From Modestobacter excelsi (GTDB taxonomy: Bacteria > Actinomycetota > Actinomycetes > Mycobacteriales > Geodermatophilaceae): a DNA stretch of 64,000 nt. A model generated the notes under the pieces. It was not told where the DNA came from, searched no databases, and saw only the letters and a program-made list of their open reading frames with translations. The translations under genes were made by a program, and so were the position numbers. The stretch lies in assembly GCF_005930495.1 (NCBI RefSeq), contig NZ_SJEX01000008.1, positions 1 through 64,000 on the forward strand. The letters are read 5' to 3'. Shown one piece after another: positions 4,364 through 39,404 of the stretch (positions are counted from its first letter, which is position 1; every line of letters begins with the position of its first letter).

Positions 4364-4966
4364 GTGCAGATCCGCGAACTCGCCGTCCCCGATGCCTACG
4401 TGCTGGACCTGGTGCCGCACGGGGATGCCCGTGGCCGGTTCACCGAGTGGTACCGGGCCGACGTGCTGGCCGAGGCCACCGGGTTCGGGCTGACCCTGGC
4501 GCAGGCCAACCACAGCGTGTCCGCCCGGGGCGTGCTGCGCGGGGTGCACTTCGCGCTGGTGCCGCCCGGGCAGGCCAAGTACGTGTACTGCCCGGCCGGG
4601 AAGGTGCTCGACGTCGTCGTGGACGTGCGGGTCGGCTCGCCGACGTTCGGGGTGCACGACGCGGTGCTGCTGGACAGCGAGCAACCGCGGGCGGTGTACC
4701 TGGCCGAGGGGCTGGGGCACGCGTTCGTGTCGCTGGCCGACGCCAGCTCGGTGACCTACCTGGTGTCGAGCGGGTACTCACCGGGCCGGGAGTTCGGGGT
4801 GCACCCGATGGACCCCGAGCTGGACCTGCCCTGGCCGGCCGACGTGGAGTTCGAGCTGTCGGCGAAGGACCTGGGCGCGCCGACCCTGGCCCAGGCCCGT
4901 GAGCAGGGCCTGCTGCCGACCCTGGAGCAGTGCACCGCCCGCTACACCGAGCTGCGCGACGCCTGA
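4364..4966 (+). CDS. rmlC: dTDP-4-dehydrorhamnose 3,5-epimerase
   Basis: RmlC carries out the third step of dTDP-L-rhamnose synthesis. The 200-residue cupin has the conserved N-terminal substrate region (DARGRFTEWY) and the catalytic His segment RGVLRGVHFALVPPGQAKYVYCPAGKVLDVVVD. The C-terminal part (MDPELDLPWPADVEFELSAKD) matches the family. It starts with GTG at 4364, 47 bases after fbiB. Rhamnose would be used for the rhamnosyl-GlcNAc linker made by WbbL later in the window. It is convergent with rmlD, with a hairpin terminator between them. Confidence 0.93.
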   Translation: MQIRELAVPDAYVLDLVPHGDARGRFTEWYRADVLAEATGFGLTLAQANHSVSARGVLRGVHFALVPPGQAKYVYCPAGKVLDVVVDVRVGSPTFGVHDAVLLDSEQPRAVYLAEGLGHAFVSLADASSVTYLVSSGYSPGREFGVHPMDPELDLPWPADVEFELSAKDLGAPTLAQAREQGLLPTLEQCTARYTELRDA

Positions 4967-4967
4967 C

Positions 4968-5013
4968 CCGTCCGCGGTTCGCCGAGAGCACGCCTGTGGC
5001 GAACTGCGGACGG
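4968..5013. terminator. Bidirectional hairpin terminator between rmlC and rmlD
   Basis: CCGTCCGCGGTTCGCC (4968-4983) pairs with GGCGAACTGCGGACGG (4998-5013) over 16 positions with one mismatch and a 14-base loop. It fills the 51-base gap between two convergent genes. There is no U-tract, as is common in high-GC actinobacteria. Confidence 0.75.
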
Positions 5014-5017
5014 CCGG

Positions 5018-5905
5018 TCAGGAGCGGAGGGCGCCGAGCTGGGCGAGGCAGGCCCGGAGCGACTCCTGCCAGGGCGGCAGCGCGGGGAGCCCGGCGGCGG
5101 TCCAGCTGGCCGGGTCCAGCACGCTGTAGGCGGGCCGGTGCGCCGGGCGGGGGAACGCATCCGTCGAGGTGGGGTGCACCCGCGCCGGGTCCGCGCCGGA
5201 CAGCTCGAACACCGCCCGGGCCAGACCGTGCCAGGTGGTGGCGCCGCTGTTGGTGGCGTGCAGCAGCCCGGTGACGTCGGACAGCGCCGCCTGCACCAGC
5301 CCGCGGGCCAGGTCGGCGGACCACGTGGGGCTGCCGGTCTGGTCGGCGACGACGGAGACGGTGTCCCGCTCGGCCTCCAACCGCAGCATGGTGCGCACGA
5401 AGTTGCTGCCGTGCGCCGCGTAGACCCAGGCGGTGCGGACGACGACCGCCTCCCCACCGGCGGCCGCCACGGCCCGTTCCCCGGCGAGCTTGGTGCGGCC
5501 GTAGGCGGTGCGTGGTGCCGGGTCGTCGTCCACGGCGTAGGGCTCGGTGGCGGTGCCGTCGAAGACGTAGTCGGTGGAGACGTGCACCAGCCGGCCGCGG
5601 CCGGCGAGCTCCTGCGCCAGCCAGCCCGGCGCGGCGCCGTTCACCAGCTCGGCGGTGGCCTCGTCGGTCTCCGCGGCGTCGACGGCGGTGTAGGCCGCGG
5701 CGTTGACCAGCACCGGACGCCGTCCGGTCGACCCGTCCAGCCACTCCCGGACGACCGAGCGGACGGCGGCCTCGTCGGTGAGGTCGACCCGGTCCCGCCC
5801 CACGGCGGTGACGGTGTCCCCGGGGCGGCCGGCCAGCACGGCCTGCAGGTCGGTGCCCAGCTGCCCGGCAGCGCCGGTCACCAGCCAGGAGACGGGCGTG
5901 CTCAC
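5018..5905 (-). CDS. rmlD: dTDP-4-dehydrorhamnose reductase
   Basis: RmlD catalyses the last step of dTDP-L-rhamnose synthesis. SWLVTGAAGQLGTDL is the Rossmann NAD(P)H loop, VNAAAYTAVDAAE is diagnostic for RmlD, and STDYVFDGT with YGRTKLAGE supplies the catalytic Thr/Tyr/Lys. The GTG start at 5905 overlaps the TGA of rmlB (GTGA, 5902-5905), which fixes the start and gives 295 residues, the usual size. Open frame upstream of this start is a shadow of rmlB. Confidence 0.95.
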   Translation of the reverse strand: MSTPVSWLVTGAAGQLGTDLQAVLAGRPGDTVTAVGRDRVDLTDEAAVRSVVREWLDGSTGRRPVLVNAAAYTAVDAAETDEATAELVNGAAPGWLAQELAGRGRLVHVSTDYVFDGTATEPYAVDDDPAPRTAYGRTKLAGERAVAAAGGEAVVVRTAWVYAAHGSNFVRTMLRLEAERDTVSVVADQTGSPTWSADLARGLVQAALSDVTGLLHATNSGATTWHGLARAVFELSGADPARVHPTSTDAFPRPAHRPAYSVLDPASWTAAGLPALPPWQESLRACLAQLGALRS

Positions 5906-6897
5906 GCGCGGGCGGTGGCGGCGGCGGCCTTGAGCGGTTCCCACCAGGCGCGGTTGTCCCGGTACCACTGCACGGTCAGCGCCAGGCCGTCCTCGAAGCC
6001 CATCCGGGGGGCGTAGCCCAGGGCGGCGGTCTTGGAGTAGTCCACCGAGTAGCGCAGGTCGTGCCCGCCGCCGCGGGGGTCGACGATGTTGTCCACGTAG
6101 GACCAGTCGCGGCCGGTGGCCTCCAGCAGCTTCGCGGTCAGTTCCTTGTTCGACAGCTCCCGGCCGCCGCCGATGTTGTAGAACTCCCCGGTCGCGCCCT
6201 GCTCCAGCACGAGCTGGATGCCGCGGCAGTGGTCGTCGACGAACAACCAGTCCCGGACGTTGGCGCCCTCGCCGTAGAGGGGCACCTTGTGCCCGTCGAG
6301 GAGGTTGGTGACGAACAGCGGGATGACCTTCTCCGGGAAGTGGTAGGGCCCGTAGTTGTTGGAGCAGCGGGTGATGGAGATGTCCAGCCCGTAGGTCCGG
6401 GCGTAGGCGCGGGCGATGAGGTCGCTGGATGCCTTCGCCGCCGAGTAGGGCGAGTTGGGCTCCAGCAGGTGGTCCTCGGTCCACGAGCCGTGCTCGATGG
6501 AGCCGTAGACCTCGTCGGTGGACACGTGCACCACCCGGCGGACCCGGTGCCGCAGGGCGGCCTCGAACACCTGCTGGGCGCCCAGCACGTTGGTCAGCAC
6601 GAACCCGGCCGCGCCGGTGAGGGAGCGGTCGACGTGGGACTCGGCGGCGAAGTTGACCACCACGTCGTGCCCGGGCAGCGCGGCGTCCAGGTCGGCGGCC
6701 ACGCAGATGTCGCCCTGGACGAACCGGTAGCGCGGGTTGTCCGCGACGGGGGCCAGGTTGGCGAGGTTGCCGGCGTAGGTGAGCTTGTCGAAGACGGTCA
6801 CCGCCGCGTCCTCGAAGCCGGGGTAACCCCCGGAGAGCATGGTGCGCACGTAGTGCGAACCGATGAAGCCGGCACCGCCGGTGACCAGGACGCGCAT
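5902..6897 (-). CDS. rmlB: dTDP-glucose 4,6-dehydratase
   Basis: RmlB converts dTDP-glucose to dTDP-4-keto-6-deoxyglucose. The 331-residue SDR enzyme begins MRVLVTGGAGFIGSHYVR (NAD loop). It shows VNFAAESHVDRS, STDEVYGS, the YSAAKASSD catalytic Tyr-Lys pair, TRCSNNYGPYHFPEKVIPL and NVRDWLFVDDHCRGI, all typical of the family. It is the first gene of an rmlB-rmlD operon and is divergent from rmlA across 123 bases, which must hold both promoters. Confidence 0.96.
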   Translation of the reverse strand: MRVLVTGGAGFIGSHYVRTMLSGGYPGFEDAAVTVFDKLTYAGNLANLAPVADNPRYRFVQGDICVAADLDAALPGHDVVVNFAAESHVDRSLTGAAGFVLTNVLGAQQVFEAALRHRVRRVVHVSTDEVYGSIEHGSWTEDHLLEPNSPYSAAKASSDLIARAYARTYGLDISITRCSNNYGPYHFPEKVIPLFVTNLLDGHKVPLYGEGANVRDWLFVDDHCRGIQLVLEQGATGEFYNIGGGRELSNKELTAKLLEATGRDWSYVDNIVDPRGGGHDLRYSVDYSKTAALGYAPRMGFEDGLALTVQWYRDNRAWWEPLKAAAATARA

Positions 6898-7020
6898 GAC
6901 CGCAGACGCTAGCCAACCCGGCGCGCGCAGCGCCGACCGCCACGGCGGAGCTCATCCCGGAGGGTGACCTCCGCCTCCCCGCCGGCCGGGATCACCGCGC
7001 GGACCGCATACGGTCACCTG

Positions 7021-7884
7021 GTGCGCGGGATCATCCTGGCCGGTGGGACCGGCAGTCGGCTGTGGCCCATCACCCTGGGCGTGAGCAAGCAGCTCATGCC
7101 GGTCTACGACAAGCCGATGATCTACTACCCGCTGTCCACGCTGATGATGGCGGGGATCCGCGAGGTGCTGGTCATCACCACCCCCGACGACCGGGACGCC
7201 TTCGCCCGGCTGCTGGGGGACGGCAGCCGGCTGGGCATGCGCATCGAGTACGCCGTCCAGCCCCGCCCCGAGGGCCTGGCCCAGGCGTTCCTGATCGGCG
7301 CGGACTTCCTCGCCGGGCAGTCCGCGGCGCTCGTGCTGGGGGACAACATCTTCTACGGCGCCGGCCTGGGCACCGCCCTGGCCCGGCTGCCCGAGCCCGA
7401 CGGCGGGCACGTGTTCGCCTACCACGTGGCCAACCCCACCGACTACGGCGTGGTCGAGTTCGACCAGGCCGGACGGGTGCTGTCGATCGAGGAGAAGCCG
7501 GCCACCCCGAAGAGCTCCTACGCCGTGCCCGGGCTGTACTTCTTCGGCCGCGACATCGTCGACGTCGCCCGGACCATCACCCCCAGCGCCCGCGGCGAGC
7601 TGGAGATCACCGCCGTCAACGAGCACTACCTGCAGGCCGGCCGGCTCACCGTCACCGTGCTCGACCGCGGCACCGCCTGGCTGGACACCGGCACCTTCGC
7701 CTCGCTGCGCCAGGCCACCGAGTTCGTCTCCGTCGTCGAGGAACGCCAGGGCCTCAAGATCGGCTGCATCGAGGAGGTCGCCTGGCGCAACGGCTGGCTC
7801 GACGACGACGCCCTGCGCGCCATCGCCGAACCGCTGGGCAAGAGCGGCTACGGCGCCTACCTGCTGGGACTGCTGACGGGCTGA
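7021..7884 (+). CDS. rmlA: Glucose-1-phosphate thymidylyltransferase
   Basis: RmlA makes dTDP-glucose, the first step to dTDP-rhamnose. The GTG at 7021 places the nucleotide loop [17 protein letters not shown] at residue 2 and gives 287 residues, the normal length. An upstream start at 6964 would add an unlikely tail. [49 protein letters not shown] and LDTGTFASL are family motifs. With rmlB, rmlC and rmlD here, the whole rhamnose-donor pathway lies within about 3.5 kb. Confidence 0.95.
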
Positions 7885-8115
7885 GCGCCCCACGGGAGGC
7901 CGATGGCACGTGACAGCGGCGCCTCGGTCCCGCGGAGGTCCTCGCCCACCCTGCTGCGGAGCCGGACGGGTGGACGATTTCGCGCAGGAGCGTCCACCTC
8001 GTATCGTGCCCTGCGGGGGCCACTCACCGGGCGCCCGCCTGGGGTCTTGGCGGGCCAGACCGTACTGCTCGTCCGCCCGCCTTCCGAGGCGAGACATGCG
8101 AGAAGGGGCGAGCTC

Positions 8116-9897
8116 TTGTCAGGAAGCACGTCAGTCGCGACGCCACCGGACCGGTCCGGCCCTGCGCGATCCGCGGACGCTCCCGGCCGGCGCCGTCCCA
8201 CGCTCCACCACGGGCTCACCGCCCTGGTCGTGCTCGCCGTGCTGGCTCTCGGCTGGAACCGGCGGTGGACCTCCGACGACGCCTTCATCAACTTCCGCGT
8301 CGTCCAGGAGCTCCTCGCCGGGCACGGACCGGTCTTCAACGCCGGCGAGCGCGTCGAGGTGGCCACCAGCCCGCTGTGGCTGTTCGTGCTCACCGTCGTC
8401 GACGCGATCGTCCCGGGCAACGCTGCGCCTTGGGCGAGCGTCCTGCTCGGGCTCGCCCTGACCGCCGTCGCGGTCACCCTCGCCTCCCTGGCCGCCGGCC
8501 GGCTGTGGTCGAAGGCGGCCTCCTGGGTGACCGTGCCCTTCGGCGTCGTGGTGTTCGCCGCACTGCCGCCCACCTGGGACTTCACCACGTCCGGCCTGGA
8601 GACGGGGCTGTCGTTCAGCTGGATCGCGCTGACCTTCTGGGGCATCGTGCGCTGGGTCCAGACCGAGCGGCCCGCCCCGCACCGGCCGGTGTGGCTGCTC
8701 GTCGTCCTCGGGCTCGGGCCGCTGGTGCGCCCGGACTTCGCGGTGATCGCCGGCATCCTGCTGCTGTTCGTGGTGATCGCCGGCGCAGGACGCTGGTGGC
8801 AACGGGTGCTGGGCCTCGTGCTCGCCGGCCTGCTGCCCGTCGCCTACCAGGTCTTCCGGATGGGCTACTACGGGCTCCTGGTGCCCAACACCGCCGTGGC
8901 CAAGGAGTCCAGCCGCCCCCTGTGGAGCCGCGGCTTCACCTACCTCGCCGACCTGGTGGCCCCCCACCTCCTCTGGGTGCCCGCGCTGATCGCCGTGCTG
9001 CTGCTGGCCGTGCTCGCCCCCCAGGCGCGCTGGCAGCGCCGGGAGTGGGCGCTCGTCCTGGTCGTCCTCGGCGCGGCTGCCGTGCACGCGCTGTACGTGG
9101 TCCGGGTCGGGGGCGACTTCATGCACGCCCGTCTGCTCATGCCCAGCGTCTTCCTGGCCCTGTGCCCGGTGGCCGCCCTGCCGCTGACCCGGCGTCGGCT
9201 GGCCGTCACCGGCGCGCTGGTCGCTGCGGCCGCGGTCTGGGCCGTCGCCTCCGTGTTCGCCCTCCGGATCAGCTACCCGGACGGCGTCGCCGACAGCGGC
9301 ATCGCCGACGAGCGGGGCTTCTACGCCGCGCTCGCCGGGGTCGAGCACCCGGTGACCCTCGCCGACCACGGTGGCGCCGGTGTGTCCCAGTACTCCGACC
9401 AGGTCGTCCGGGCTGACCGCGAGGGCATGGACGAGATCGTCGTCCAGGTGGTGCCGGTGACGACGACGACCCCGTTGGAGGTGATCGGTCCGTCCTCCGG
9501 GGGGATGGTCTTCTCCGTCGGCAACGCCGGCTTCTACGGCGTCGCGGCGGGTCTCGACGTGTTCGTCATCGACGGGTTCGGGCTCACCGACCCGATCGGC
9601 TCGCACATCGCCCCCGGCCCACCCGGTCGCCCGGGCCACGAGAAGGTCTTCCCGCGGGAGTACCTGTTCGCGCGCTTCGGGGCCCCCGACGACGTCGGGA
9701 CCGGCGCCCAGCCGGACACGTCCCCGGTCGGTACCGCCCGGCAGGTCCTGGCCTGCGGCGAGGCGGCGGAACTGATCGAGGCGACCAGCGGGAGGCTCAC
9801 CGTCAGCCGGTTCCTCAGCAACATCGTCCACTCGCCGGAGCTGACGTCCTTCCGGGTGCCGGGGGACCCGGCCCAGGCGCGCGACCAGCTCTGCTGA
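8116..9897 (+). CDS. aftB: Terminal beta-(1->2) arabinofuranosyltransferase (AftB-like), GT-C membrane enzyme
   Basis: AftB adds the final arabinofuranose residues of arabinan from decaprenyl-phosphoryl-arabinose on the outer face of the membrane. The 593-residue product has an N-terminal loop with the GT-C Asp pair (D54-D55 in RRWTSDDAFINFR) followed by many hydrophobic helices. Segments match mycobacterial AftB closely as I recall it: GHGPVFNAGERVE, FTTSGLETGL, PVAYQVFRMGYYGLLVPNTA, GGDFMHAR and the C-terminal SRFLSNIVHSPELT. I chose the TTG at 8116 because AAGGGG precedes it and the extra 71 residues from an ATG at 7903 look non-coding. It may be co-transcribed with rmlA. Confidence 0.88.
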   Translation: MSGSTSVATPPDRSGPARSADAPGRRRPTLHHGLTALVVLAVLALGWNRRWTSDDAFINFRVVQELLAGHGPVFNAGERVEVATSPLWLFVLTVVDAIVPGNAAPWASVLLGLALTAVAVTLASLAAGRLWSKAASWVTVPFGVVVFAALPPTWDFTTSGLETGLSFSWIALTFWGIVRWVQTERPAPHRPVWLLVVLGLGPLVRPDFAVIAGILLLFVVIAGAGRWWQRVLGLVLAGLLPVAYQVFRMGYYGLLVPNTAVAKESSRPLWSRGFTYLADLVAPHLLWVPALIAVLLLAVLAPQARWQRREWALVLVVLGAAAVHALYVVRVGGDFMHARLLMPSVFLALCPVAALPLTRRRLAVTGALVAAAAVWAVASVFALRISYPDGVADSGIADERGFYAALAGVEHPVTLADHGGAGVSQYSDQVVRADREGMDEIVVQVVPVTTTTPLEVIGPSSGGMVFSVGNAGFYGVAAGLDVFVIDGFGLTDPIGSHIAPGPPGRPGHEKVFPREYLFARFGAPDDVGTGAQPDTSPVGTARQVLACGEAAELIEATSGRLTVSRFLSNIVHSPELTSFRVPGDPAQARDQLC

Positions 9898-10903: not shown

Positions 10904-11674
10904 TCAGCGCGGCGCCATCCGGAGCGCGCCGTCCATCCGGATGACCTCGCCGTTCAGGTAACCGTGCCGCACGATGTCCAGCGCCAGCTCGGCGAAGTCC
11001 TCCGGGCGCCCCAGCCGCTTGGGGAACGGGATGCCGGCGGCGAGTGCCGTGCGGGCCTCCTCCGGCAACGAGGCCAGCAGCGGGGTGTCGACCAGGCCGG
11101 GGGCGATCGTGCACACCCGGACGCCGACCGAGGACAGGTCCCGCGCGGCCGGCAGCGTCAGCCCGACGATGCCGCCCTTGGAGGCGGCGTAGGCGATCTG
11201 GCCGATCTGGCCGTCGTAGGCGGCGATCGAGGCGGTGTTGACCACGACCCCTCGCTCGCCCTCCCCGTCGGGCTCGGTGCGCGCCATCGCGGCGGCCGCC
11301 AGCCGCAGCACGTTGAAGGTGCCGATCAGGTTGACGCCGACGGTGCGGGTGAACGCGGCGAGCTCGTGCGGCGACCCGTCGCGGCCCAGCACCCGGGCGG
11401 CGTAGCCGATGCCGGCGCAGTTGACCGCGATGCGCAGCGGCCGGTCCTTGCCCGTGGCGTCGTCGATCGCCGCCTGCACCGACTCCTCGTCGGTGACGTC
11501 GGTGCGCACGAAGGTGGTGTGCCCCCCGAGCTCGGCGGCGAGCGCCTGCCCGCGCTCCCCGTTGAGGTCCAGCACGGTGACCGCCACGCCCGCCGCGGTC
11601 AGCGCGCGGGTGGTGGCCTCCCCGAGGCCGGAGGCCCCTCCGGTGACGACAGCGGCGACATCGAGGTCCTTCAC
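10904..11674 (-). CDS. Short-chain dehydrogenase/reductase, 3-hydroxyacyl-CoA dehydrogenase-like
   Basis: This is a classical NAD-dependent SDR of 256 residues: [11 protein letters not shown] (dinucleotide loop), VNCAGIGYA, catalytic Ser in [21 protein letters not shown] with the YxxxK pair, and the tail [15 protein letters not shown]. The pattern resembles type-2 3-hydroxyacyl-CoA dehydrogenases used in fatty-acid or sterol oxidation, but the substrate cannot be read from sequence. The GTG at 11674 is used because the extra N-terminal residues of the longer frame to 11839 are not protein-like. Confidence 0.85.
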
Positions 11675-11888
11675 ATCGGCGAGTGAACCACGCGTCCGGA
11701 TGCCCCCGGGGGCCGGTGCGGCTCCGACCTCACGAGTCCCATCCGACTCGGCGTGCCCCACAGGACGAGACGCGCCCCACGGGTGGCCGCGGGTCGGCCG
11801 GGAACGGATGGCCCTCCGGTAGGACCAGTCCCGTGACACCCGTTCCCTCGACCCGGACCACCGGCGGGGCCACTACCCGAGGACGTGC

Positions 11889-13853
11889 ATGAACCTCCAG
11901 GCCGACCTGGTCGTCCCGACGACCCCGCGCCTCGCCTCCGACGTCTGGAGGACCGCCCGAGGGGACGACCGCCTGGCATCACGCGTCCCTCGGGGCTGGT
12001 CGGTCCCGGTGGTCCTGCCCTGGGTGGTCGTGCCGCTGCTCGTGGCGGTGGTCTACCGCCTCCTCCCCAGCGCGACGGAACTCCGAGCGCACTACCAGGG
12101 GGCGGCGGTGGCCCTGGTCACCGCGCCGGCGCTGGCGTACCTGCTCACCCGCACGAGCCGTTGGGCCCACCACACCGCCGGCGCGCTGGTGGCGGCGGTC
12201 CTCCCCGGTCTCACCCTCATCTCCCTGCACGGCACCGGCTGGTTCTTCTCCGGTCCGTTCGGTGACCAGTCGTTCCGCCTCGAGTACGCCACCCGCTTCG
12301 CCGCCGACCTGGGCAGCCTGCAGGACTACACGTACCAGGACGCGCCGTCCTTCTACTCCCCCGGCTGGTTCTGGATCGTCGGACTCGTGGCCCGGGTGAG
12401 CGGCACGCCGGCCTGGCACGCCTACAAGTGGGTGGGCATCGCCACGCTCTACGTGGCCGTCGCGGTGGCCTTCTCCCTGTGGCGGCGGACGTGCAGCACC
12501 CGGCTCTCCGCCGTCCTGGTGACGGTCACCGTCATCGGCCTGCCGTTCGCCGGGGCCGGCTGGCTGGGCGGCGAGACGCTCATGTTCTCCGGGGGCTACG
12601 AGCCCTACGGCTGGCTCGTCGTCCTGCCGCTGCCCGCGCTCCTCACCTGGTTCGCCGGCCGCAGCGGACCGTTCCAGCTCCGCCGGGCCCTGCTGCTGGG
12701 CGCCGCGATCGCGGTGGCCGCGTGGCTGTACCTCCTCTACGCCGTGGTGGCGGTCGTCGCCGTCCTCGTCCTGGCCGCCCTGCGGTGGCGGGAGCGCAGC
12801 GTGCTCCTCGAGGTGCTGACGGCCGGACTGGCGACGGTGGTCCTCGTGTCGCCGTGGCTGGGGCCGTTCGTCGTCGCGTGGCTGCGGGCCGGCCGGCCGC
12901 ACGCCCTCGCCACCACGTACGTGCAGAACGACTCCTACGTGTCGCTCATCACGCCCGCCGCGTCCCCCTGGGTGGTCCTGGCGCTCGTCGGGGCGGTGGC
13001 CGTCCTCGCTGCCCGCCGCTGGCACGGCTCGGGGCTCCTGGGCTGCCAGGCCGTGGGCGGCGCCCTCGCCGTCCTGGGCCTCGGTCAGGTCTTCCTCGGC
13101 CAGTCCGGTGCCGGGGTGCTCTTCCACCGCCTGCTCATCGTCCTGGGCGTCGCGCTGCTCGCGGCCGGCGTCTTCGGAGCGCAGAAGCTGCTGGCCACCC
13201 TGCCCGAGGGCTGGCTCGGCCGGCTGGGGCCGCTGGTGACGTCCGGCAGCGTGCTCATGGCCCTCCTGACCGTCGCCCTCTTCATCGGCGTGAACGGACA
13301 CGCCCGCGAGTGGACGAACGGCGACGCCGACCTGCGGAAGCTGGCGCACGACGTGCCGCAGCCCGACGGCGAGCTCTCCCCGCTGTCCCGGCCGGAGACC
13401 CGTGAGGCCCTCGCCGGCCGGGCCTCGCTCGACCAGCTGGCGGAGACGGCGGAGCGCGTCGCGGCCCGTGCCGGGCAGCCCGAGACCGGCGTCGTCCTCA
13501 CCGACGACGAGGCGCTCCTGGCCACCTCGCCGTTCTTCGGCTACATCCAGTGGTGGGAGCTGTACTCGAGCCCGCTGGGCGAGTACCCCGAGCGCAGGGC
13601 CTTCCTCGAGCAGCTCGCCACCGAGCCGGCTGATCAGCTGGCGAGCGCCCTGCGGGCGAACGCGGACGCGCCCACCGTCTTCGTCCTCGAGGTCGACGGC
13701 ACGGACGTGACCTTCGGGTCCGCGGCGTGGGACGGCGCGTCGGGCTCCTCGGCGCCGTGGACGGTGCGGCTGCCGGTGAGCGCCTTCTCCTCGGACGACT
13801 TCGTCACCACCCGGGTCGACGGTCGGCTCGTCGCCGCACTGCGCGAGGGGTGA
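11889..13853 (+). CDS. AftA-family arabinofuranosyltransferase paralog 1, multi-pass membrane protein
   Basis: The 654-residue protein has about a dozen hydrophobic segments and a soluble C-terminal domain, as in AftA, the enzyme that primes galactan with the first arabinofuranose. Shared motifs with the orthologous aftA at 27178-29142 include WFFSGPFGDQSFRLEYATRF (aftA has DQEFRTQYLTRL), FYSPGWFW, SEP/YEPY segments and a C-terminal LTDDEALLATSPFFGYIQWW block ending in PTVFVLEV. It is much closer to the gene at 16125-18095 than to aftA. GAGGACGTGC precedes the ATG. It probably transfers a pentofuranose from a polyprenyl donor; the acceptor is unknown. Confidence 0.78.
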   Translation: MNLQADLVVPTTPRLASDVWRTARGDDRLASRVPRGWSVPVVLPWVVVPLLVAVVYRLLPSATELRAHYQGAAVALVTAPALAYLLTRTSRWAHHTAGALVAAVLPGLTLISLHGTGWFFSGPFGDQSFRLEYATRFAADLGSLQDYTYQDAPSFYSPGWFWIVGLVARVSGTPAWHAYKWVGIATLYVAVAVAFSLWRRTCSTRLSAVLVTVTVIGLPFAGAGWLGGETLMFSGGYEPYGWLVVLPLPALLTWFAGRSGPFQLRRALLLGAAIAVAAWLYLLYAVVAVVAVLVLAALRWRERSVLLEVLTAGLATVVLVSPWLGPFVVAWLRAGRPHALATTYVQNDSYVSLITPAASPWVVLALVGAVAVLAARRWHGSGLLGCQAVGGALAVLGLGQVFLGQSGAGVLFHRLLIVLGVALLAAGVFGAQKLLATLPEGWLGRLGPLVTSGSVLMALLTVALFIGVNGHAREWTNGDADLRKLAHDVPQPDGELSPLSRPETREALAGRASLDQLAETAERVAARAGQPETGVVLTDDEALLATSPFFGYIQWWELYSSPLGEYPERRAFLEQLATEPADQLASALRANADAPTVFVLEVDGTDVTFGSAAWDGASGSSAPWTVRLPVSAFSSDDFVTTRVDGRLVAALREG

Positions 13854-13872
13854 GCACGCGGGCGACGTGACG

Positions 13873-27158: not shown

Positions 27159-27177
27159 TGACGCGGCCGGCCACCCC

Positions 27178-31701: not shown

Positions 31702-32080
31702 GGAATGGGCCTCCGATCAGCGAGTGGCAGCCGCCGAGGCGGCGTCTTCCGCGTAGTTCATCGTCCAGCCGGGCCCCGACCTTGAGCCGTCCGCGGCACC
31801 GGTCTCCGGCCGGCACCGGCCGGGAACCGGCGTCGGCACCTGGTCACCGGTCGGTCGGACCGTCCAGGCGGGGACGCCGCGCCGGTGCGGACGACGACCC
31901 CTCCGGGACACGCCCGAGGCGGGAGTGCCGGGTGGTGGCGGAGGGGCGAGACACGGCGCCGACGCCCCCGAGCGGCGGGCCGGACGACCGGGACCCCGGT
32001 CGTACAGTGACCAGCACACGCCGCCTGACGACGGGCCACTGGGCACCTCACCGACGTCGGCAGCCCGACGTGAGGACGAC
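31702..32080. other. 379-base divergent intergenic region between the LGFP amidase and LCP genes
   Basis: No protein-like ORF is seen on either strand. It must carry both promoters. On the minus strand a CGGAGG Shine-Dalgarno sequence sits 8 bases before the amidase GTG. On the plus strand TGAGGACGAC precedes the LCP ATG and a TACAGT hexamer (about 32003) could be a -10 box. I see no clear -35, operator or RNA structure. Confidence 0.4.
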
Positions 32081-33625
32081 ATGAGCACTGACGACCGCGA
32101 CGCGCCGGGGAGCTCCCGCCCGTTGCCCCCGCGACTCGATCCCCGGGCCGGTCGGCCGGCCCGCGGCCGGTCGGGGTCCACCGGTGCCACCGCCACCGCG
32201 ACGTCCGCCGCCGGCGGCCGCCGGATGGTCTGGACCGGCCGGGTCGTCGCGATGCTGCTCTCGCTGGCCGTGCTGGTCACCAGCGGCTGGGGCTGGTACC
32301 TCGGCCGGGTCGCCGACGCGACTGTCAACCGCACCGACGCCATCCCGACGTCCGGCAACGACGAGACCGTCGAGACCGGCGCGGCGATGAACCTGCTGCT
32401 CGTCGGCAACGACAGCCGCTCCTCGCTGACCGAGGAGCAGCTCTCCGAGCTCAACGCCGGCACCGACTCGGGCACCAACACCGACACGATGATCCTGGTG
32501 CACGTGCCCGCCGACGGGTCGAAGGCGTCCTTCGTCTCCTTCCCGCGCGACTCCTACGTGCAGATCCCGGGCCACGGCTGGGACAAGCTCAACGCCGCCT
32601 ACGCCTACGGCCGGCAGGACGCCCCGGACGGCGCCTCCGACGCGGCCCGCTCCGCGCAGGGCGCCCAGCTGCTGGTGAAGACCATCAGCGCGTTCACCGG
32701 CCTGCGCATCGACCACTACGCAGAGGTCGACCTGCTCGGTTTCTTCGAGCTCAGCAGCGTCGTCGGCGGCGTCGAGGTGAACCTCTGCAACGCGGTCGAC
32801 GACTCCTTCTACTCCGGTGCGGTGTTCCCGGCCGGCGTCCAGACGATCAGCGGCGCGGACGCGCTGAAGTTCGTCCGGCAGCGGCACGAGCTCCCCCGCG
32901 GCGACTTCGACCGGATCATCCGCCAGCAGGTGTTCATCGCCGGCGTGCTGCGCAAGATGCTGTCCGACGACGTCCTGCTCGACCTCGGCAAGCAGCGGGA
33001 GCTGGTCTCGGCGGCCTCGAAGTCGCTGACGGTGGACCAGAACCTCAACCTGCTGCAGCTGGCCCAGCAGATGCAGTCGGTGACCGCCGGCAGCATCGAC
33101 TTCCAGACCGTGCCCTACGTCGGCGACGACACCGACGACGCCGGCCGCTACATCCTGCGGCTGGAGGACGAGGACGCGCTGCACTCGTTCTTCGCCGCGC
33201 TCTCCGCCGAGCCGCAGCAGACCGCCGCCCCGACCACAGCGGCGCCCGCCACCGTGGCCCCTGCGGACGTGTCGGTCGCGGTCTTCAACGGCTCGGGCAC
33301 CAGCGGCCTGGCCGGCGAGGCGGCGACCCAGCTCGAGAGCGCCGGGTACACGATCACCGAGACCGGCAACGCCGACTCGATGGACCACACGACCACCGAG
33401 ATCCGGTACGCCGCCGGCGACGAGGCACTGGCCACCACGCTGGCCGGGTCCGTCCCGGGTGCCACGACCGAGCAGGTCGACGACGCCACCAGCGGGACCG
33501 TCCAGCTCGTCCTGGGCTCGGACTTCAACGGGGTCGGCCAGGCGGTGACCGCCCCGGCGGCCCCTGCCCCGACCACCGAGGGCGAGGACCAGCGCACCGC
33601 CGCGGACACCAGCTGCATCAACTGA
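32081..33625 (+). CDS. LytR-CpsA-Psr (LCP) family wall-polymer ligase with LytR_C domain
   Basis: LCP enzymes move lipid-linked glycopolymers onto peptidoglycan. The mycobacterial ortholog by position (Rv3267/Lcp1) joins arabinogalactan to peptidoglycan. The 514-residue protein has a cytoplasmic N-terminus, one membrane helix (MLLSLAVLVTSGWGWYL) and the LCP domain (LLVGNDSRS, NTDTMILVHV, SFPRDSYVQIPG, KLNAAYAYG, YAEVDLLGF, ALKFVRQRHELPRGDFDRIIRQQ with catalytic Arg/Asp). An Ala/Thr linker and a C-terminal LytR_C domain (VSVAVFNGSGTSGLA) follow. The ATG at 32081 follows TGAGGACGAC. It heads a run with the LicD fusion gene. Confidence 0.93.
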   Translation: MSTDDRDAPGSSRPLPPRLDPRAGRPARGRSGSTGATATATSAAGGRRMVWTGRVVAMLLSLAVLVTSGWGWYLGRVADATVNRTDAIPTSGNDETVETGAAMNLLLVGNDSRSSLTEEQLSELNAGTDSGTNTDTMILVHVPADGSKASFVSFPRDSYVQIPGHGWDKLNAAYAYGRQDAPDGASDAARSAQGAQLLVKTISAFTGLRIDHYAEVDLLGFFELSSVVGGVEVNLCNAVDDSFYSGAVFPAGVQTISGADALKFVRQRHELPRGDFDRIIRQQVFIAGVLRKMLSDDVLLDLGKQRELVSAASKSLTVDQNLNLLQLAQQMQSVTAGSIDFQTVPYVGDDTDDAGRYILRLEDEDALHSFFAALSAEPQQTAAPTTAAPATVAPADVSVAVFNGSGTSGLAGEAATQLESAGYTITETGNADSMDHTTTEIRYAAGDEALATTLAGSVPGATTEQVDDATSGTVQLVLGSDFNGVGQAVTAPAAPAPTTEGEDQRTAADTSCIN

Positions 33626-33648: not shown

Positions 33649-35292
33649 GTGCTGACCGACCTGACCGTCGACGAGACGGGCGTGGTGTTCACCGCGGCCG
33701 CGGAGGACCGCCTCCGGGCGGTCGACGTGCTGCTGGACGGCCGGCGGATCTGGTCCTTCCGGATCGCCGACGCCGCGGCCGCTGCCGAGGACGACCCCAC
33801 CCGGTTCCGGATGCCCTGGCCGGCCGTCCTGCTGCCCTACCTGGACGGCTGGTCGACCGTCGGGCTGCGCCCGGTCGACGGCCGGGACGGCCTGCAGGTC
33901 GCCACCGCCCGCTTCGGCACCGGGGGCCACCCGGTCCGGTTCGAGGACGCGCACGGGCTCGGCCTGATGGTCAACAAGTGGGGGACGATCGGCCACGCGC
34001 TCGCCGACTACCCGGCCGGCATCGAGCAGCGCCTGCTCGACCGGGTCGACCGGGTGCGGGAGGTGATCGCCGCGGCCGTGGACGTCGACGTCTACGTCAC
34101 CGGGGGCACCCTGCTGGGCCCGTACCGGGACGGGCACGTCATGCCCAACGACGACGACGCCGACCTCGCCTACCTGAGCGGTCGCCGGCACCCGGCCGAC
34201 GTGGCCCGGGAGGGCTTCGTCCTCGGCCGGGCCGTCGCGGCCGCCGGCATCACGGTGCTGCGGCTGTCGGCCGGGCACCTGCAGCTGCACTTCGAGCACG
34301 AGGGCCGGCCGGACGGCTACGTCGACATCTTCACCGGCTGGATCGACGACGCCGGCTGGTGGTACCAGCTGTTCCCGATCCGCGCGCAGGTCCGGCGGGA
34401 GCAGCTCGTCCCGCCCGCGACGCTGGACGTCGAGGGGCATCCCGAGCCCATGTGCCGGGAGCCGGAGCTGATGCTGGAGGAGCTGTACGGCCCCGGCTGG
34501 CGGTCCCCCGACCCGGCGTTCTCCTTCGACGTGCCGCGGACCACCTCGGACCGGTTCTACGGCTGGATGTCCGACCAGCACATGGACCGGGAACCGTGGG
34601 AGGACCACTACCGGTACGACGTCCTCGGCGGCCGCGTCGAGCTCGGCACCGAACCGACGGCGTACGCGCAGGAACTGGCCGGGCGGCTGGCACCCGGGAC
34701 GACGATCGTCGAGCTCGGCGCCGGCCGCGGCCACGACGCGCTCTGGCTCGCGCAGCAGGGCCACCGGGTCCAGGCCCTGGACTACGTCCGCTGGCCGATG
34801 CTCCGGGCCGCGGAGGCCGCGGCGCAACGGGGGCTCGACGCCACCTTCCGCACGGTCAACCTCTACGACCCGCGGCGGGTCCTCGCCCTCGGCGCCGAGC
34901 TGGCCGCCCGCGACGAGCCCACGGTGGTCTACGCCCGCGACCTGCTCGCCACGCTCTGGGACGTCGGCCGGCCCGGCCTGCACCGGCTGCTGTCGATGCT
35001 GCTGCGCCGCGGCGGCGAGGCCCACCTCGACGTCCCCCGCTCCAGCCTGCGTCCCGACCCGTCCCGGGGCGGCCTGCTGCACCGGGCCGTCGACGTCGAC
35101 GTGCTCGCGGCGGAGATGGCCGGCTACGGGCTCGTGGTGCGCGACACGGTCGACGTGGTCGAGGAGGTCGCCTGGCCCGGCGGCCGCCAGCAGCCCGGGG
35201 CGACCGACCCGACCGCCGGCAGCGAGACCGGGGGCGCGAGCTCCCGGCTGGAGAAGACGAGGATGGTGGTGGCATGGCGGCGACGTCGCTGA
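33649..35292 (+). CDS. LicD-family transferase fused to a SAM-dependent methyltransferase
   Basis: The N-terminal region (about 110-330) has the LicD signature VYVTGGTLLGPYRDGHVMPNDDDADLAYL, with the Asp cluster at residues 166-171, found in phosphotransferases that decorate wall glycans. The C-terminal half (from about 345) is a class I methyltransferase: TIVELGAGRGHDALWLAQQGHRVQALDY (SAM loop near residue 353). A GAGGAGACCCCC Shine-Dalgarno sequence precedes the GTG start, 23 bases after the LCP gene. The substrate is unknown. Context suggests phospho-substituent transfer plus methylation on the wall polymer. I do not know a characterised protein with this fusion. Confidence 0.75.
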   Translation: MLTDLTVDETGVVFTAAAEDRLRAVDVLLDGRRIWSFRIADAAAAAEDDPTRFRMPWPAVLLPYLDGWSTVGLRPVDGRDGLQVATARFGTGGHPVRFEDAHGLGLMVNKWGTIGHALADYPAGIEQRLLDRVDRVREVIAAAVDVDVYVTGGTLLGPYRDGHVMPNDDDADLAYLSGRRHPADVAREGFVLGRAVAAAGITVLRLSAGHLQLHFEHEGRPDGYVDIFTGWIDDAGWWYQLFPIRAQVRREQLVPPATLDVEGHPEPMCREPELMLEELYGPGWRSPDPAFSFDVPRTTSDRFYGWMSDQHMDREPWEDHYRYDVLGGRVELGTEPTAYAQELAGRLAPGTTIVELGAGRGHDALWLAQQGHRVQALDYVRWPMLRAAEAAAQRGLDATFRTVNLYDPRRVLALGAELAARDEPTVVYARDLLATLWDVGRPGLHRLLSMLLRRGGEAHLDVPRSSLRPDPSRGGLLHRAVDVDVLAAEMAGYGLVVRDTVDVVEEVAWPGGRQQPGATDPTAGSETGGASSRLEKTRMVVAWRRRR

Positions 35293-35733: not shown

Positions 35734-36489
35734 TCAGATGGGCAGCTTGCGGAACACCGCCCGCGGCGTGTGCCGCAGGCCGCTCATGACCCAGCGCATG
35801 GCGCCGGGCACCCACACGGTGTGCCGGCCCTTGCGGACGCCGGTGACGATCGCCTCGGCGACCGCCTCGGGCGTGGTGGCCAGCGGCGCGTCGGCGATCC
35901 CCTCGGTCATCTTCGACCTGACGAAGCCGGGACGGACCACGAGGACCGAGACGCCGGAGCCCACCAGGGAGTCCGCGAGACCGGAGTAGAAGGCGTCCAG
36001 ACCGGCCTTGGTCGACCCGTAGACGAAGTTCGACGCCCGCGGCCGTTCCCCGGCGACCGAGGAGAGCGCGACGATGACCCCGTGCCCCTGCCGGCGCATG
36101 AGGTTGGCCAGCTCCGTGCCGACCACCGTGGGCGCCACGTAGTTGACCTGCGCCAGCTGGGCGACGGCGGCGGGCTCGGTGCGCAGCTGGTCGGCGTCGC
36201 CGAGCAGCCCGAAGGCGACCACCGCGACGTCGACGTCACCGCCGGCGGCCGCCGCGGCGACCATCGACGCCGGCGAGGAGGCGTCGTCGGCGTCAAAGTC
36301 GACGACCTCGACGGTGCCACCCGCGGCCTTGAGCTCGTCGGCGACGGCGCTGCGGCGCGGGGTGTCCCGCGCCGCCAGGACGATCCGCAGCGGCCGCTCG
36401 GCCAGGTACCTGCGGGCGGTGGCCACGGCGATGTCGGAGGTGCCGCCGACGAGCAGCAGCGAGCTGGGGGAACCGAGTGCGTCGATCAC
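35734..36489 (-). CDS. dprE2: Decaprenyl-phosphoryl-2-keto-ribose reductase (DprE2)
   Basis: With DprE1, DprE2 epimerises decaprenyl-phosphoryl-ribose to decaprenyl-phosphoryl-arabinose, the only arabinose donor for AftA, AftB and Emb. It is a 251-residue SDR with LLLVGGTSDIAVA (NADH loop), DVDVAVVAFGLLGDADQL, ALSSVAGERPRASNFVYGSTKAGLDAFY (Ser-Tyr-Lys), and the end RHTPRAVFRKLPI, nearly the same as Rv3791. Its ATG overlaps the TGA of dprE1 (36486-36489), so the pair is coupled. The stop lies 16 bases from the convergent coiled-coil gene. Confidence 0.95.
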   Translation of the reverse strand: MIDALGSPSSLLLVGGTSDIAVATARRYLAERPLRIVLAARDTPRRSAVADELKAAGGTVEVVDFDADDASSPASMVAAAAAGGDVDVAVVAFGLLGDADQLRTEPAAVAQLAQVNYVAPTVVGTELANLMRRQGHGVIVALSSVAGERPRASNFVYGSTKAGLDAFYSGLADSLVGSGVSVLVVRPGFVRSKMTEGIADAPLATTPEAVAEAIVTGVRKGRHTVWVPGAMRWVMSGLRHTPRAVFRKLPI

Positions 36490-37871
36490 AGTGCGAGCCT
36501 CCTGGCCAGGTCGGAGGTGAAGACACCGTCGGGGTCCACCCGCTTGCGGACGGCCCGGAAGTCGTCGAGCCGGTCGTACATCTTCTCGAAGGTCTCCGGG
36601 CGCACCCGGGAGTCCTTGGCCAGGTAGGTGCGGCCCGCCGCGGCGATGACGACCTCGTCGAGGGAGTCGAGCAGGCCGGCCAGCCCCTTCATCACCGGGA
36701 TGTCCAGCGCGAGCGTCCAGCCGGGCGAGGGGTAGGACAGCATGCCCGGGTTCCCCGGGCCGAACCGCTTGAGCACGGCGAGGAAGGAGGCGGTCCCGAA
36801 GGAGCTGAGCCGGTCCAGCACCTCACGCATGGCCTCCTCCTGCCCGAAGGGCACGGTGACCTGGTACTGCACGAAGCCGCGCGGCCCGTAGATGCGGTTC
36901 CAGCCACCGACGGCGTCCAGCGGGTGGAAGAAGGTCGGGATGCTCTGCAGCTGGTCCCGCTTCTTCTTCGGGGCCTTGCGGTACCAGACCTCGTTGAACG
37001 CCGCGACCGTGGCCAGGTTGAGCAGGCCGGGCGGGAAGACGTCGGGCACCGAGGCCTTGACCGAGCCGTGGTACTTCAGCGGGTCGGTCCGGCGCTTGGC
37101 CGGCAGTTCGTCCAGCTTGGCGAACCGGCCGCGGGTGACGACCGAGCGGCCCATCCGCTTGCCCTTGGCGAGGGTGTCGATCCAGGCCACCGAGTACTCG
37201 TAGAGGTGGTCGGTCTCGGTGAGCAGCGTCATCAGCGAGTCCAGGTCCTCGGTCCGGTCGGTGTCGACCAGGCAGCGCGAGGACTCGATCGCCTTCATCT
37301 GCACCTGCGCCCGCAGGATGACCCCGGTCAGGCCCATGCCGCCGGCGGTGGCCCAGAACAGGTCGGCGTCGGACTCCGGGCTGATCCGGCGGACCTGCCC
37401 GTCCGCCGTCAGCAGGTCGATCCAGCGCACGTGAGAAGCGAAGCTGCCGGCGACGTGGTGGTTCTTGCCGTGGATGTCGGCGGCGATGGCCCCGCCGACG
37501 GTCACCAGCCGGGTGCCCGGCGTCACCGGGACGAAGAAGCCCTGCGGGACGAACTGGTTCATCAGCTCGTCCAGGGAGATCCCGGCCTCGACGTCGACCA
37601 GGCCGGTCTCCAGGTCGGCGTGCAGCACCCGGGCGGCGGCGGTCATGTCCAGCACGGTGCCGCCGGCGTTCTGCGCGGCGTCGCCGTAGCTGCGGGCCAG
37701 GCCGCGGGCCACGACACCGCGACCGGTGGCGGCCAGCACGGCGGCGCGGACGTCGTCGTCGTCGTGGACCGGGGTGAGCGCGGCACGGGTCGGGGCGGTG
37801 CGGCCCCAGCCGACGAGCGGGACGCGGGGAGGTTCGGGTGCGGTGGTGGAGAGGAGAGCGGTGTCAGCCAC
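36486..37871 (-). CDS. dprE1: Decaprenyl-phosphoryl-ribose 2'-oxidase (DprE1), with Ala at the benzothiazinone-reactive Cys site
   Basis: DprE1 oxidises decaprenyl-phosphoryl-ribose at C2 using FAD, a periplasmic-side step. The 461-residue length equals that of M. tuberculosis DprE1. GRGVVARGLARSYGDAAQN and TVGGAIAADIHGKNHHVAGSF (FAD site) and TYLAKDSR (catalytic Lys) are conserved. The segment aligned with M. tuberculosis WNICVDF reads WTLALDI, so the Cys387 attacked by benzothiazinones is Ala388 here (GCG at 36708-36710). It overlaps ubiA by 8 bases upstream and dprE2 by 4 bases downstream. Confidence 0.96.
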   Translation of the reverse strand: MADTALLSTTAPEPPRVPLVGWGRTAPTRAALTPVHDDDDVRAAVLAATGRGVVARGLARSYGDAAQNAGGTVLDMTAAARVLHADLETGLVDVEAGISLDELMNQFVPQGFFVPVTPGTRLVTVGGAIAADIHGKNHHVAGSFASHVRWIDLLTADGQVRRISPESDADLFWATAGGMGLTGVILRAQVQMKAIESSRCLVDTDRTEDLDSLMTLLTETDHLYEYSVAWIDTLAKGKRMGRSVVTRGRFAKLDELPAKRRTDPLKYHGSVKASVPDVFPPGLLNLATVAAFNEVWYRKAPKKKRDQLQSIPTFFHPLDAVGGWNRIYGPRGFVQYQVTVPFGQEEAMREVLDRLSSFGTASFLAVLKRFGPGNPGMLSYPSPGWTLALDIPVMKGLAGLLDSLDEVVIAAAGRTYLAKDSRVRPETFEKMYDRLDDFRAVRKRVDPDGVFTSDLARRLAL

Positions 37872-38865
37872 TGAATACCCCCAGGGCGACGGTCAGCGCC
37901 CAGAGGGCGCCGAGGATGAGCAGGACACGGTCGTGCATGACGATCTCCTCGGGGGCGCCGGCGGCGCCCTTGTCGACGTCCCGCGCGTACCGCAGGATCG
38001 CCAGGACGAAGGGGGCGATGGAGAAGGTGGCCCACGGGACGCCGTCCTGGGCCTCCGCCATCTCGAAGGCCCACAGGCTGTACGCGGACAGCGCCACCGC
38101 GGCCGAAAGACTCCATACGAAACGCAGGTAGCTCGCGGAGTACTCCCGCAGGGTCTTCCGCGTCGCGGCGGCGTCGCCGACGACGATCAGCTCGGAGTAG
38201 CGCTTCCCGGCCACCATGAACAGCGAGCCGAAGGCCGCCACCAGCAGGAACCACTGGGACAGCACCAGCCCGGCCGCCACACCGCCGGCGATGCCGCGGA
38301 GCAGGAACCCGGAGGCGACCACGGCCAGGTCGATGACCGGCTCGTTCTTCAGGAAAGTGCAGTAGGCCAGCTGGATGACCACGTAGCTGGCCAGCACCCA
38401 CGCCAGGGCCGGCCGGGTGAGCAGCGCGCCGGCGGTCAGGGTGCCGGCGAAGAGCACGACGGCGATCGCGACGGCCGCCGAGCGCGGCACCAGGCCGGCG
38501 GCGATCGGCCGGAACCGCTTGCGCGGGTGCCGCCGGTCCTCCTCGACGTCGATCGAGTCGTTGACCAGGTACACGCCGGAGGCGGCCAGGCAGAACAGCG
38601 CGAAGGCGACGGCGGTGGGCCCCATCACGTCGGGGTTGAACACCTCGCCGGCGGCGAGCGGCGCCGCGAGCACGAGGACGTTCTTGACCCACTGCCGGGG
38701 CCGCAGTGCGCGGACGAAGCCCCAGGGGCGAGAGCCCCGGAAGCCCGGCGTCCGCGGCGGCGGGGCGACCTTGCCGGGTTGACCCGTGCCTGCCACCGGG
38801 CTGAGCGCCGGACCCGTGCGCACGGTCCCGGGAGAGGTGGGGGCCGGTTGCGGCTGAGCGGTCAC
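37864..38865 (-). CDS. ubiA: Decaprenyl-phosphate phosphoribosyltransferase (UbiA/Rv3806c-like)
   Basis: This membrane prenyltransferase-fold enzyme transfers 5-phosphoribose from PRPP to decaprenyl phosphate, the first committed step to the arabinose donor. The product has the first Asp motif [43 protein letters not shown] at the membrane entry, a second motif around AGKRYSELIVVGD, and about nine helices. It has 333 residues, with a Pro-rich N-terminal tail of about 45. It is chained between the PAP2 gene (4-base overlap) and dprE1 (8-base overlap), giving a four-gene donor operon PAP2-ubiA-dprE1-dprE2. Confidence 0.94.
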   Translation of the reverse strand: MTAQPQPAPTSPGTVRTGPALSPVAGTGQPGKVAPPPRTPGFRGSRPWGFVRALRPRQWVKNVLVLAAPLAAGEVFNPDVMGPTAVAFALFCLAASGVYLVNDSIDVEEDRRHPRKRFRPIAAGLVPRSAAVAIAVVLFAGTLTAGALLTRPALAWVLASYVVIQLAYCTFLKNEPVIDLAVVASGFLLRGIAGGVAAGLVLSQWFLLVAAFGSLFMVAGKRYSELIVVGDAAATRKTLREYSASYLRFVWSLSAAVALSAYSLWAFEMAEAQDGVPWATFSIAPFVLAILRYARDVDKGAAGAPEEIVMHDRVLLILGALWALTVALGVFSG

Positions 38866-39404
38866 GATCGGGCCTTCCTGGAGGTGGGGGAGGTCATGCG
38901 GCGCCGGACGACGGTGGCCACGGTGGCCCCGAGCGCGGCGCCGGAGAGGACGTCACTGGGGTAGTGCACACCCAGCAGCACCCGCGAGACCAGCATCGCG
39001 CCGGTCGCCGTGGCCATCACCGGAGCACCCAGCATGGGGGCGAAGCCGACGGCGGCTGCGGCGGTCGAGGTGCTGTGCGCGCTGGGGAAGGACAGCCGGC
39101 TGGGCGTGGCGACCAGGGCCGGCACGTCCTCGAGGGCGGGGCGCACCCGCCGCACCACCCGCTTGACGACCACGCCGGCGGCGTGGGCGACCACGACACC
39201 GACGGTCCCGGCGACCCACTCGTCCCGCCGGCGGCCGGAGAGCCAGCCGACGGCGCCGAGGGCGATCCAGCCCAGGGCGTGCTCACCGAAGTGGGACATC
39301 CCCTGGGCGACCGGGACGGCGGGGGTCTCCCCGAGGGCGCGGCGTGTGGAGCGGAGCACGGCGTGATCGAGACGGATCAGGCCGGTACCGCGGGCAGCAG
39401 TCAT
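38862..39404 (-). CDS. PAP2-family phosphatase, likely decaprenyl-phosphoryl-5-phosphoribose phosphatase
   Basis: The 180-residue membrane protein has the PAP2 motifs KRVVRRVRPALED, PSAHSTSTAAAA and SRVLLGVHYPSDVLSG with the catalytic His. Its place directly before ubiA matches Rv3807c-Rv3806c. The proposed job is removal of the 5-phosphate from decaprenyl-phosphoryl-phosphoribose before DprE1 acts. It is the first gene of the donor operon, divergent across 82 bases from the TIGR03089 gene. Confidence 0.9.
   Translation of the reverse strand: MTAARGTGLIRLDHAVLRSTRRALGETPAVPVAQGMSHFGEHALGWIALGAVGWLSGRRRDEWVAGTVGVVVAHAAGVVVKRVVRRVRPALEDVPALVATPSRLSFPSAHSTSTAAAAVGFAPMLGAPVMATATGAMLVSRVLLGVHYPSDVLSGAALGATVATVVRRRMTSPTSRKARS

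Follow-up and report, generated by a model that had tools for sequence, protein, structure and literature searches.

Does a bacterium without mycolic acids assemble an arabinogalactan-type wall polymer, and does it hold the genes for it as an exchangeable unit? A locus of Modestobacter excelsi, a member of the Geodermatophilaceae (hereafter the family), raises this question. It lies on a stretch of 64,000 nucleotides that we call the window (NCBI RefSeq assembly GCF_005930495.1, contig NZ_SJEX01000008.1, positions 1 to 64,000 of the forward strand). We interpret the window as carrying the complete arabinogalactan cassette of a mycolate-less bacterium, placed in a slot whose content would be exchanged between strains by recombination in the flanks, and we give this interpretation a probability of roughly 0.8.

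The available part of a survey (PMC6194230) limits arabinogalactan genes to lineages beyond one node leading to the Pseudonocardiales and Corynebacteriales. There, Pseudonocardiales and Actinopolysporales are said to carry arabinogalactan genes and to be devoid of mycolic acids, and arabinogalactan is seen as a step towards the mycomembrane, a stepwise and lineage-level trait. The Geodermatophilaceae are not named among arabinogalactan producers in that part of the survey. Since arabinogalactan without mycolates is thus already known in Pseudonocardiales, the headline of an earlier reading of this DNA (the sequence-only reading), which proposed such a polymer in a bacterium without mycolates, belongs to a known kind. 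The novelty seems to lie in the complete pathway in the Geodermatophilaceae, in the variability of the slot, in the divergence of the arabinan alleles and in a lead concerning a second Emb clade, embX. Literature matches for Geodermatophilaceae and arabinogalactan contained neither word in their titles or abstracts. Searches combining arabinosyltransferase, galactofuranosyltransferase and the genus names likewise gave neither enzyme word among the matches listed.

Results

Genes of the arabinogalactan-type pathway

Gene families were called by Pfam and NCBIfam profile scans and by comparison with the sequences of solved structures. Coordinates refer to the window, and + and - give the strand. 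The sequence-only reading had placed an arabinogalactan assembly block at 4364-39404, and these comparisons confirm that block. The expected motifs also line up where aligned, namely DDD and WDD of GlfT2 (with solved GlfT2), DIHGKNHH and AKDSR of DprE1 and DDGY of Emb, for which we presume catalytic roles. GlfT1, Wzt, Wzm, DprE1, DprE2 and UbiA score over NCBIfam equivalog cut-offs; RmlC and the AftB-like protein score below them.

All five components of galactofuran synthesis and export are present. These are the UDP-galactopyranose mutase Glf (18153-19412, +; TIGR00031 over cut-off), the galactan polymerase GlfT2 (19431-21350, +; GlfT2_domain3 and Glft2_N over gathering scores; solved GlfT2 at E 2.3e-201), the galactan-priming transferase GlfT1 (21363-22313, -; NF050113, 485 bits), the export ATPase Wzt (22280-23095, -; NF050108, 464 bits) and the export permease Wzm (23118-24062, -; NF050109, 411 bits). 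Synthesis of dTDP-rhamnose is represented by rmlC (4364-4966, +; PF00908; NCBIfam 134.9 bits, below the 155.75 cut-off), rmlD (5018-5902, -; PF04321, 312 bits), rmlB (5902-6897, -; TIGR01181 over cut-off) and rmlA (6964-7884, +; TIGR01207 over cut-off). A manC-type mannose-1-phosphate guanylyltransferase gene (13907-15022, -; NTP_transferase and ManC domains; below the TIGR01479 cut-off) is followed by that of a WbbL-like GT2 protein, the presumed linker rhamnosyltransferase (15033-16091, -). The latter was scanned against NCBIfam only and gave weak GT2-type matches; its name rests on its position next to manC and rml. A homologue adjoins manC in 13 of the 14 genomes compared, the exception being the stretch of G107.

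The set for the decaprenyl-phospho-arabinose (DPA) donor is also present in the window. It comprises dprE2 (35734-36489, -; NF053786 over cut-off), dprE1 (36486-37871, -; NF053785, 712 bits, cut-off 500; solved DprE1 at E 1.9e-142), ubiA for decaprenyl-phosphate phosphoribosyltransferase (37864-38865, -; NF008978, 412 bits, cut-off 207; solved 8j8j at E 1.1e-85) and a PAP2 phosphatase gene (38862-39404, -), presumed from its PF01569 domain only to encode the DPPR phosphatase. The window DprE1 has an alanine aligned with a cysteine of the best solved DprE1 (GWTLALDIP versus GWNVCVDFP). We take this cysteine to be the covalent target of benzothiazinones in mycobacterial DprE1, and natural insensitivity of the window enzyme would be expected.

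For arabinan priming, extension and capping, the window encodes AftA, Emb and AftB-like proteins. Emb (24102-27158, +; PF04602, PF14896 and PF17689, 360 bits) matches solved EmbA, EmbB and EmbC (EmbB 7bwr at E 8.8e-96). Three AftA-type arabinofuranosyltransferases were found genome-wide: the canonical AftA, aftA1 (27178-29142, -; AftA_N 293 bits; solved AftA 8if8 at E 1.2e-82), aftA2 (11889-13853, +; AftA_N/AftA_C) and aftA3 (16125-18095, +; AftA_N 126 bits; 8if8 at E 5.8e-33). For aftA3 we propose the ATG at 16125 as start, the frame having been counted by hand. A 1160-amino-acid open reading frame (ORF) at 14613, considered as a fusion of a 580-amino-acid domain with AftA, was discarded as spurious; it overlaps manC and the WbbL-like gene. 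The AftB-like terminal beta-arabinofuranosyltransferase (7903-9897, +) matches solved AftB 9dlf at E 6.6e-82 and reaches 312 bits with NF041481, below the cut-off of 1050. A ligase of the LCP type, predicted to link glycopolymer to peptidoglycan, is encoded at 31925-33625 (+; LytR_cpsA_psr and LytR_C).

We infer the enzyme activities, and the polymer itself, by analogy with the Corynebacteriales. WbbL would put rhamnose on a lipid-linked linker, GlfT1 and GlfT2 would build galactofuran, and Wzm/Wzt would export it. UbiA, PAP2, DprE1 and DprE2 would make DPA; AftA would then prime the arabinan, Emb extend it and AftB cap it. The LCP protein would join the polymer to peptidoglycan, and the polymer ends would stay mycolate-free.

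Mycolate genes

None of the scanned window proteins belonged to mycolate synthesis, in agreement with the sequence-only reading. The genome of the strain (G000; G and L handles denote compared genomes and loci) measures 5.26 Mb and is rated 100% complete. Its best match to Pks13 scored 103 bits against a cut-off of 2100, which the Corynebacterium glutamicum control exceeded. Matches to the esterase family, which has the mycolyltransferase fold, were only weak fragments (best 29.7 bits). The FadD32 score was under the cut-off in both the genome and the C. glutamicum control and does not discriminate. Pks13 over cut-off is listed in none of the 82 family genomes sampled. It occurs in 85 of the 396 genomes of the order, and those checked all carry the family code f7.

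Having no Pks13, G000 should not make mycolates. That it nevertheless makes them, with genes elsewhere in the genome, is very improbable: the shared FadD32 result of genome and control leaves room for this, whereas the Pks13 and esterase scores in a genome of such completeness argue strongly against it. With the pathway present and no Pks13 over cut-off, the locus is best interpreted as serving an arabinogalactan-type polymer in a bacterium that lacks mycolates.

One slot with different contents

The slot is wider than 4364-39404, taking in the fbi/rml/manC side and the fadE25-purE side. Its conserved left border consists of the F420 genes fbiA-fbiB (2174-4316, +; Pfam CofD and F420_ligase). 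fbiB is present in 22 of the 23 genomes of the genus, with 74-97% identity in the other 21 (97% in G085). The conserved right border is fadE25-purE-purK-gtrA (47781-51328), with homologues in the slots fetched that far; the name fadE25 rests on position and on a Pfam acyl-CoA dehydrogenase match, and the stretches of G093 and G099 gave no match to this gene. In congeners we retrieved the region from fbiA-fbiB to fadE25-purE-purK-gtrA, using the window proteins as queries against it.

The flanks were the same and the interiors differed. G085 and G087 have the same galactan and donor genes as the window, at 88-99% identity. In G092, fbiB (95%) and DprE1 (97%) are close to those of the window but glfT2 is 56% identical, and the slot holds no emb or aftA, one AftA being encoded elsewhere in that genome. 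Galactan genes and DprE without emb were found in G091 and G093, galactan genes without DprE in G099 and G104, and DprE without GlfT2 in G089 and G100. G106 has no Emb, GlfT2 or DprE1 and carries GT2/GT4 and WsaF-type glycosyltransferases and a Wzt_C transporter instead. The rpoB genes of G092 and G106 are 97.9% and 97.5% identical to that of the window strain.

An rpoB tree was built for 18 of the 23 genomes of the genus (rpoB was missing in five, each less than 90% complete, and one row is partial). In this tree the window strain, G085, G087, G092 and G106 group together (support 92/86; 97.5-98.4% identity to the window strain), and the combinations of Emb, GlfT2 and DprE1 on its 18 tips cannot be explained by fewer than 10 changes. 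The slot hence displays what is expected of a swappable locus, conserved flanks around an interior that differs between close relatives. From this pattern we infer that its content is swapped between strains, presumably by recombination in the conserved flanks.

Where emb would lie, between wzm and the amidase gene, G092 encodes a DUF6541 protein (L122:2519-4873), possibly another glycosyltransferase.

Divergent arabinan alleles

Compared by megablast, the window and G087 share long DNA blocks that are mostly 91-94% identical, and both window ends match in order at about 89-93%. Identity is 89-90% at the outermost parts, 87% over the amidase-LCP stretch and 82% over aftB, which lies between blocks of 92%. 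No megablast match to G087 was obtained for 11673-13891 (aftA2), 23975-29236 (emb and aftA1) and 42708-47781 (GT87/LGFP genes). aftA1 and aftA2 were not found in the slot stretches of the sisters G085 and G087, each of which has one AftA-type protein genome-wide; aftA3 is kept in both (91% and 89%). The window Emb is 52-54% identical to the Embs of arabinogalactan-type sisters and 53-54% to those of G085 and G087, which are 87% identical to each other. In a tree that omits seven Emb ORFs (six copies under another locus and one partial paralogue), it branches outside those two and four Blastococcus Embs. This conflicts with rpoB, where G085 and G087 are the nearest rows. Among named sequences, the nearest Emb matches are from Blastococcus and Modestobacter (50-54% identity), the best from Pseudonocardia reaching 41-43%.

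The window emb is apparently a replaced allele relative to the sisters. Given the tree conflict and the breaks in identity, the genes for the outer chains seem to have been swapped separately from those for the backbone. Because aftA1, aftA2, emb and aftB are so sharply unlike the genes of the sisters, the outer part of the polymer probably varies from strain to strain, as in O-antigen.

Could these differences stem from misassembly or contamination? The assembly is a draft of 178 contigs, but the ordered match of both window ends to G087 and the galactan module shared with G085 and G087 make such an artefact most improbable. A second alternative deserves more weight, although we consider it unlikely: vertical inheritance from an ancestor shared with the Pseudonocardiales and loss in most Geodermatophilaceae, with no cassette exchange. 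In its favour, seven canonical Embs of the family form one clade next to those of Pseudonocardia and Actinomycetospora, and each of the nine other genus genomes whose slot was retrieved as a long stretch has LCP, rml and manC in it. Vertical descent would, however, not predict a window Emb outside the Embs of both its rpoB neighbours and Blastococcus, nor a 5-kb stretch that lacks any DNA match in G087 and is flanked by blocks of 93.5% and 86.7% identity. The slot of congeners is occupied by other polymer genes rather than simply deleted, and gene orders differ in the 23-kb stretches around Emb of the Pseudonocardiaceae records examined.

Distribution in the family and published sugar profiles

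Among 112 family genomes, Emb (PF04602) was found in 32, GlfT2 domain 3 in 71, DprE1 over cut-off in 41 and AftA above 100 bits in 13. We called an Emb canonical at 352 bits or more, the next best score being 322. The full canonical set (Emb, GlfT2, DprE1 and AftA) is present in six genomes from two genera (G000, G085, G087, G003, G012 and G018), and DprE1 accompanies canonical Emb in 6 of 6 cases, kinship ignored. A family-wide link between Emb and DprE1 did not hold (Fisher P=0.39; 14 genomes with both, 18 with Emb only, 27 with DprE1 only and 53 with neither, n=112).

We compared these genes with published sugar profiles, as far as given in the available parts of the sources. Blastococcus aurantiacus DSM 44268 (G003), which has the full gene set, is listed with arabinose and galactose (PMC9686282 Table 1). 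Geodermatophilus obscurus (G048), with GlfT2 but no Emb and no DprE1 over cut-off, is described with galactose and no arabinose (PMC5742155). The match of genes and sugars thus concerns two strains and is not a correlation. Within the genus of the window, Modestobacter lapidis and M. lacusdianchii are listed with arabinose, and M. roseus, M. multiseptatus, M. muralis and M. versicolor without (PMC4990248 Table 1).

A divergent Emb clade without DprE1

Of the 18 genomes with Emb and without DprE1, 16 carry the divergent clade embX and two (G007 and G062) a third clade, embZ. In all 16 embX genomes the contig or slot stretch that bears embX also holds a ubiA homologue. In 8 of them the two genes share a strand and are adjacent or separated by PAP2 alone, and PAP2 is present in 11. 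All 10 embX-associated UbiAs scanned exceed the cut-off of NF008978 (decaprenyl-phosphate phosphoribosyltransferase). DprE1 over cut-off was found in none of the 16 genomes, genome-wide. For DprE2, the survey covered the embX loci and listed matches of 60% identity or more. As controls we used eight GlfT2 slots without Emb or DprE1 (G013, G022, G042, G043, G048, G057, G064 and G104). ubiA was absent from all eight between manC and purE, UbiA not being sought elsewhere in those genomes. The difference (16/16 versus 0/8) gives a Fisher P of 1.4e-6 with kinship ignored, the 16 genomes sharing ancestry. ubiA was also not found in the partly read slots of G020, G054 and G078, in the two embZ slots or in G106.

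All Emb clades retain the residues of the DD, RPE and P-KW/HFG motifs. A search for donor-pocket residues that distinguish embX from canonical Emb yielded 17 candidate positions. At the one compared with mycobacterial EmbB (window residue 404), EmbB has a third residue, and these positions were not used. The embZ clade comprises L184-L185 (G007), L151 (G062) and L223 (G065); the slots of G007 and G062 show no ubiA or DprE1.

As a hypothesis, the simplest reading is that embX genomes make decaprenyl-phospho-ribose and use it as such. The slot might then be a modular wall-polymer locus that furnishes a galactan backbone with different furanose outer chains: arabinofuranose if Emb comes with UbiA, DprE1 and DprE2, as in the window, and ribofuranose, taken directly from decaprenyl-phospho-ribose, where embX and UbiA occur without DprE1. 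We hold this extension to be tentative, with a chance somewhat short of even. If true, it would imply a ribogalactan wall that has been missed since whole-cell ribose is ascribed to RNA. No title or abstract opening among the literature matches listed reports a ribose-bearing galactan.

Neighbouring genes

A protein with LicD-like and methyltransferase parts (33649-35292, +; sub-cut-off matches to both) is a candidate polymer modifier, and might act terminally at the place where mycolates would sit. In the loci fetched, slot homologues were found in Emb-bearing genomes only (G085, G087, G003, G012, G007, G076 and G056). None was found in the B. endophyticus locus L010, and a partial match in the Emb-less G042 lies outside the slot. 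Two GT87 proteins in G000 are candidates for AftC; one of them (42761-44323) has no NCBIfam or PDB match.

The stretch 39448-44323 includes TIGR03089, two CoA-transferase subunits and DUF1028, a block that adjoins the slot in many relatives. In the window this block is followed by the GT87 protein, for which the stretches retrieved from G085 and G087 gave no match. Three LGFP-repeat proteins are encoded at 29236-31701, 45113-47713 and 62799-63998, the first being an amidase_2 protein (29236-31701, -) in which the domain scan found 8 LGFP repeats. The stretches retrieved from G092, G106, G001 and G062 showed no LGFP repeats, though N-terminal parts of the related proteins persist in G092, G106 and G062. 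We rejected the repeats as an indicator of galactan or arabinogalactan, since they are absent from the slot stretches retrieved from the galactan-bearing G092 and G062 and present near the galactan-less G089 and G100.

Discussion

Several observations weigh against a complete arabinogalactan cassette in an exchangeable slot. AftD (PF11847) was not found in G000, with a positive C. glutamicum control, nor in any of five further genomes searched of the same genus, so the arabinan branching may differ or be missing. All three full-set Blastococcus genomes (G003, G012 and G018) do have AftD, on contigs other than the emb contig. The rpoB tree stars 5 of 15 inner branches, with no inner resolution in the five-row clade of the window strain, and no recombination donor or junction was identified. 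Available parts of the chemotaxonomic sources conflict as well. An older source gives galactose in G. obscurus in small amounts only. M. multiseptatus has arabinose in a footnote of PMC8602919 and lacks it in PMC4990248, and B. endophyticus is listed without arabinose or galactose in PMC9686282 Table 1, where the genus text lists both. Another strain of B. endophyticus has Emb. We counted the data on these last two species neither for nor against.

The missing AftD, together with the extra AftA-type genes, the single Emb and an LCP protein of unassigned substrate, would also suit an arabinose- and galactose-bearing glycopolymer other than arabinogalactan bound to peptidoglycan, such as a capsule or a galactan bearing little arabinose. 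We judge this doubtful. The set is of the Corynebacteriales type, including linker sugar, LCP protein and galactan exporter, with most members over curated cut-offs, and C. glutamicum also has one Emb.

The arabinogalactan pathway proposed for the window shares its rhamnose, galactan, DPA donor, AftA, Emb, AftB and LCP enzymes with that of the Corynebacteriales (Mycobacterium and Corynebacterium). Unlike there, the genes sit in one compact slot, with three AftA-type genes, no AftD found and alanine for cysteine in DprE1, and G000 has no Pks13 and so presumably no mycolates. Arabinogalactan genes without mycolate synthesis are shared with the Pseudonocardiales and Actinopolysporales (wall type IV; available part of PMC6194230). 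The window differs from these in belonging to another family, in the fbi-purE slot and in that few family genomes carry the set. With regard to architecture, the slot is reminiscent of loci for surface polymers, having conserved flanks and an interior that differs between close relatives. O-antigen, capsule and teichoic acid loci have conserved flanks and a variable centre, but here one of the alternative contents is an arabinogalactan pathway.

The patchy occurrence of a complete cassette, in a slot that differs within one genus, suggests that arabinogalactan can be gained, lost and re-edited as a unit. Our results point to mycolate-free organisms for the study of arabinan enzymes. An Emb branch with a possibly different donor sugar would be of use in finding the determinants of donor choice in the Emb family, the target of ethambutol. 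For the family itself, the variability of the slot offers an explanation for the erratic reports of arabinose in the chemotaxonomy of the Geodermatophilaceae.

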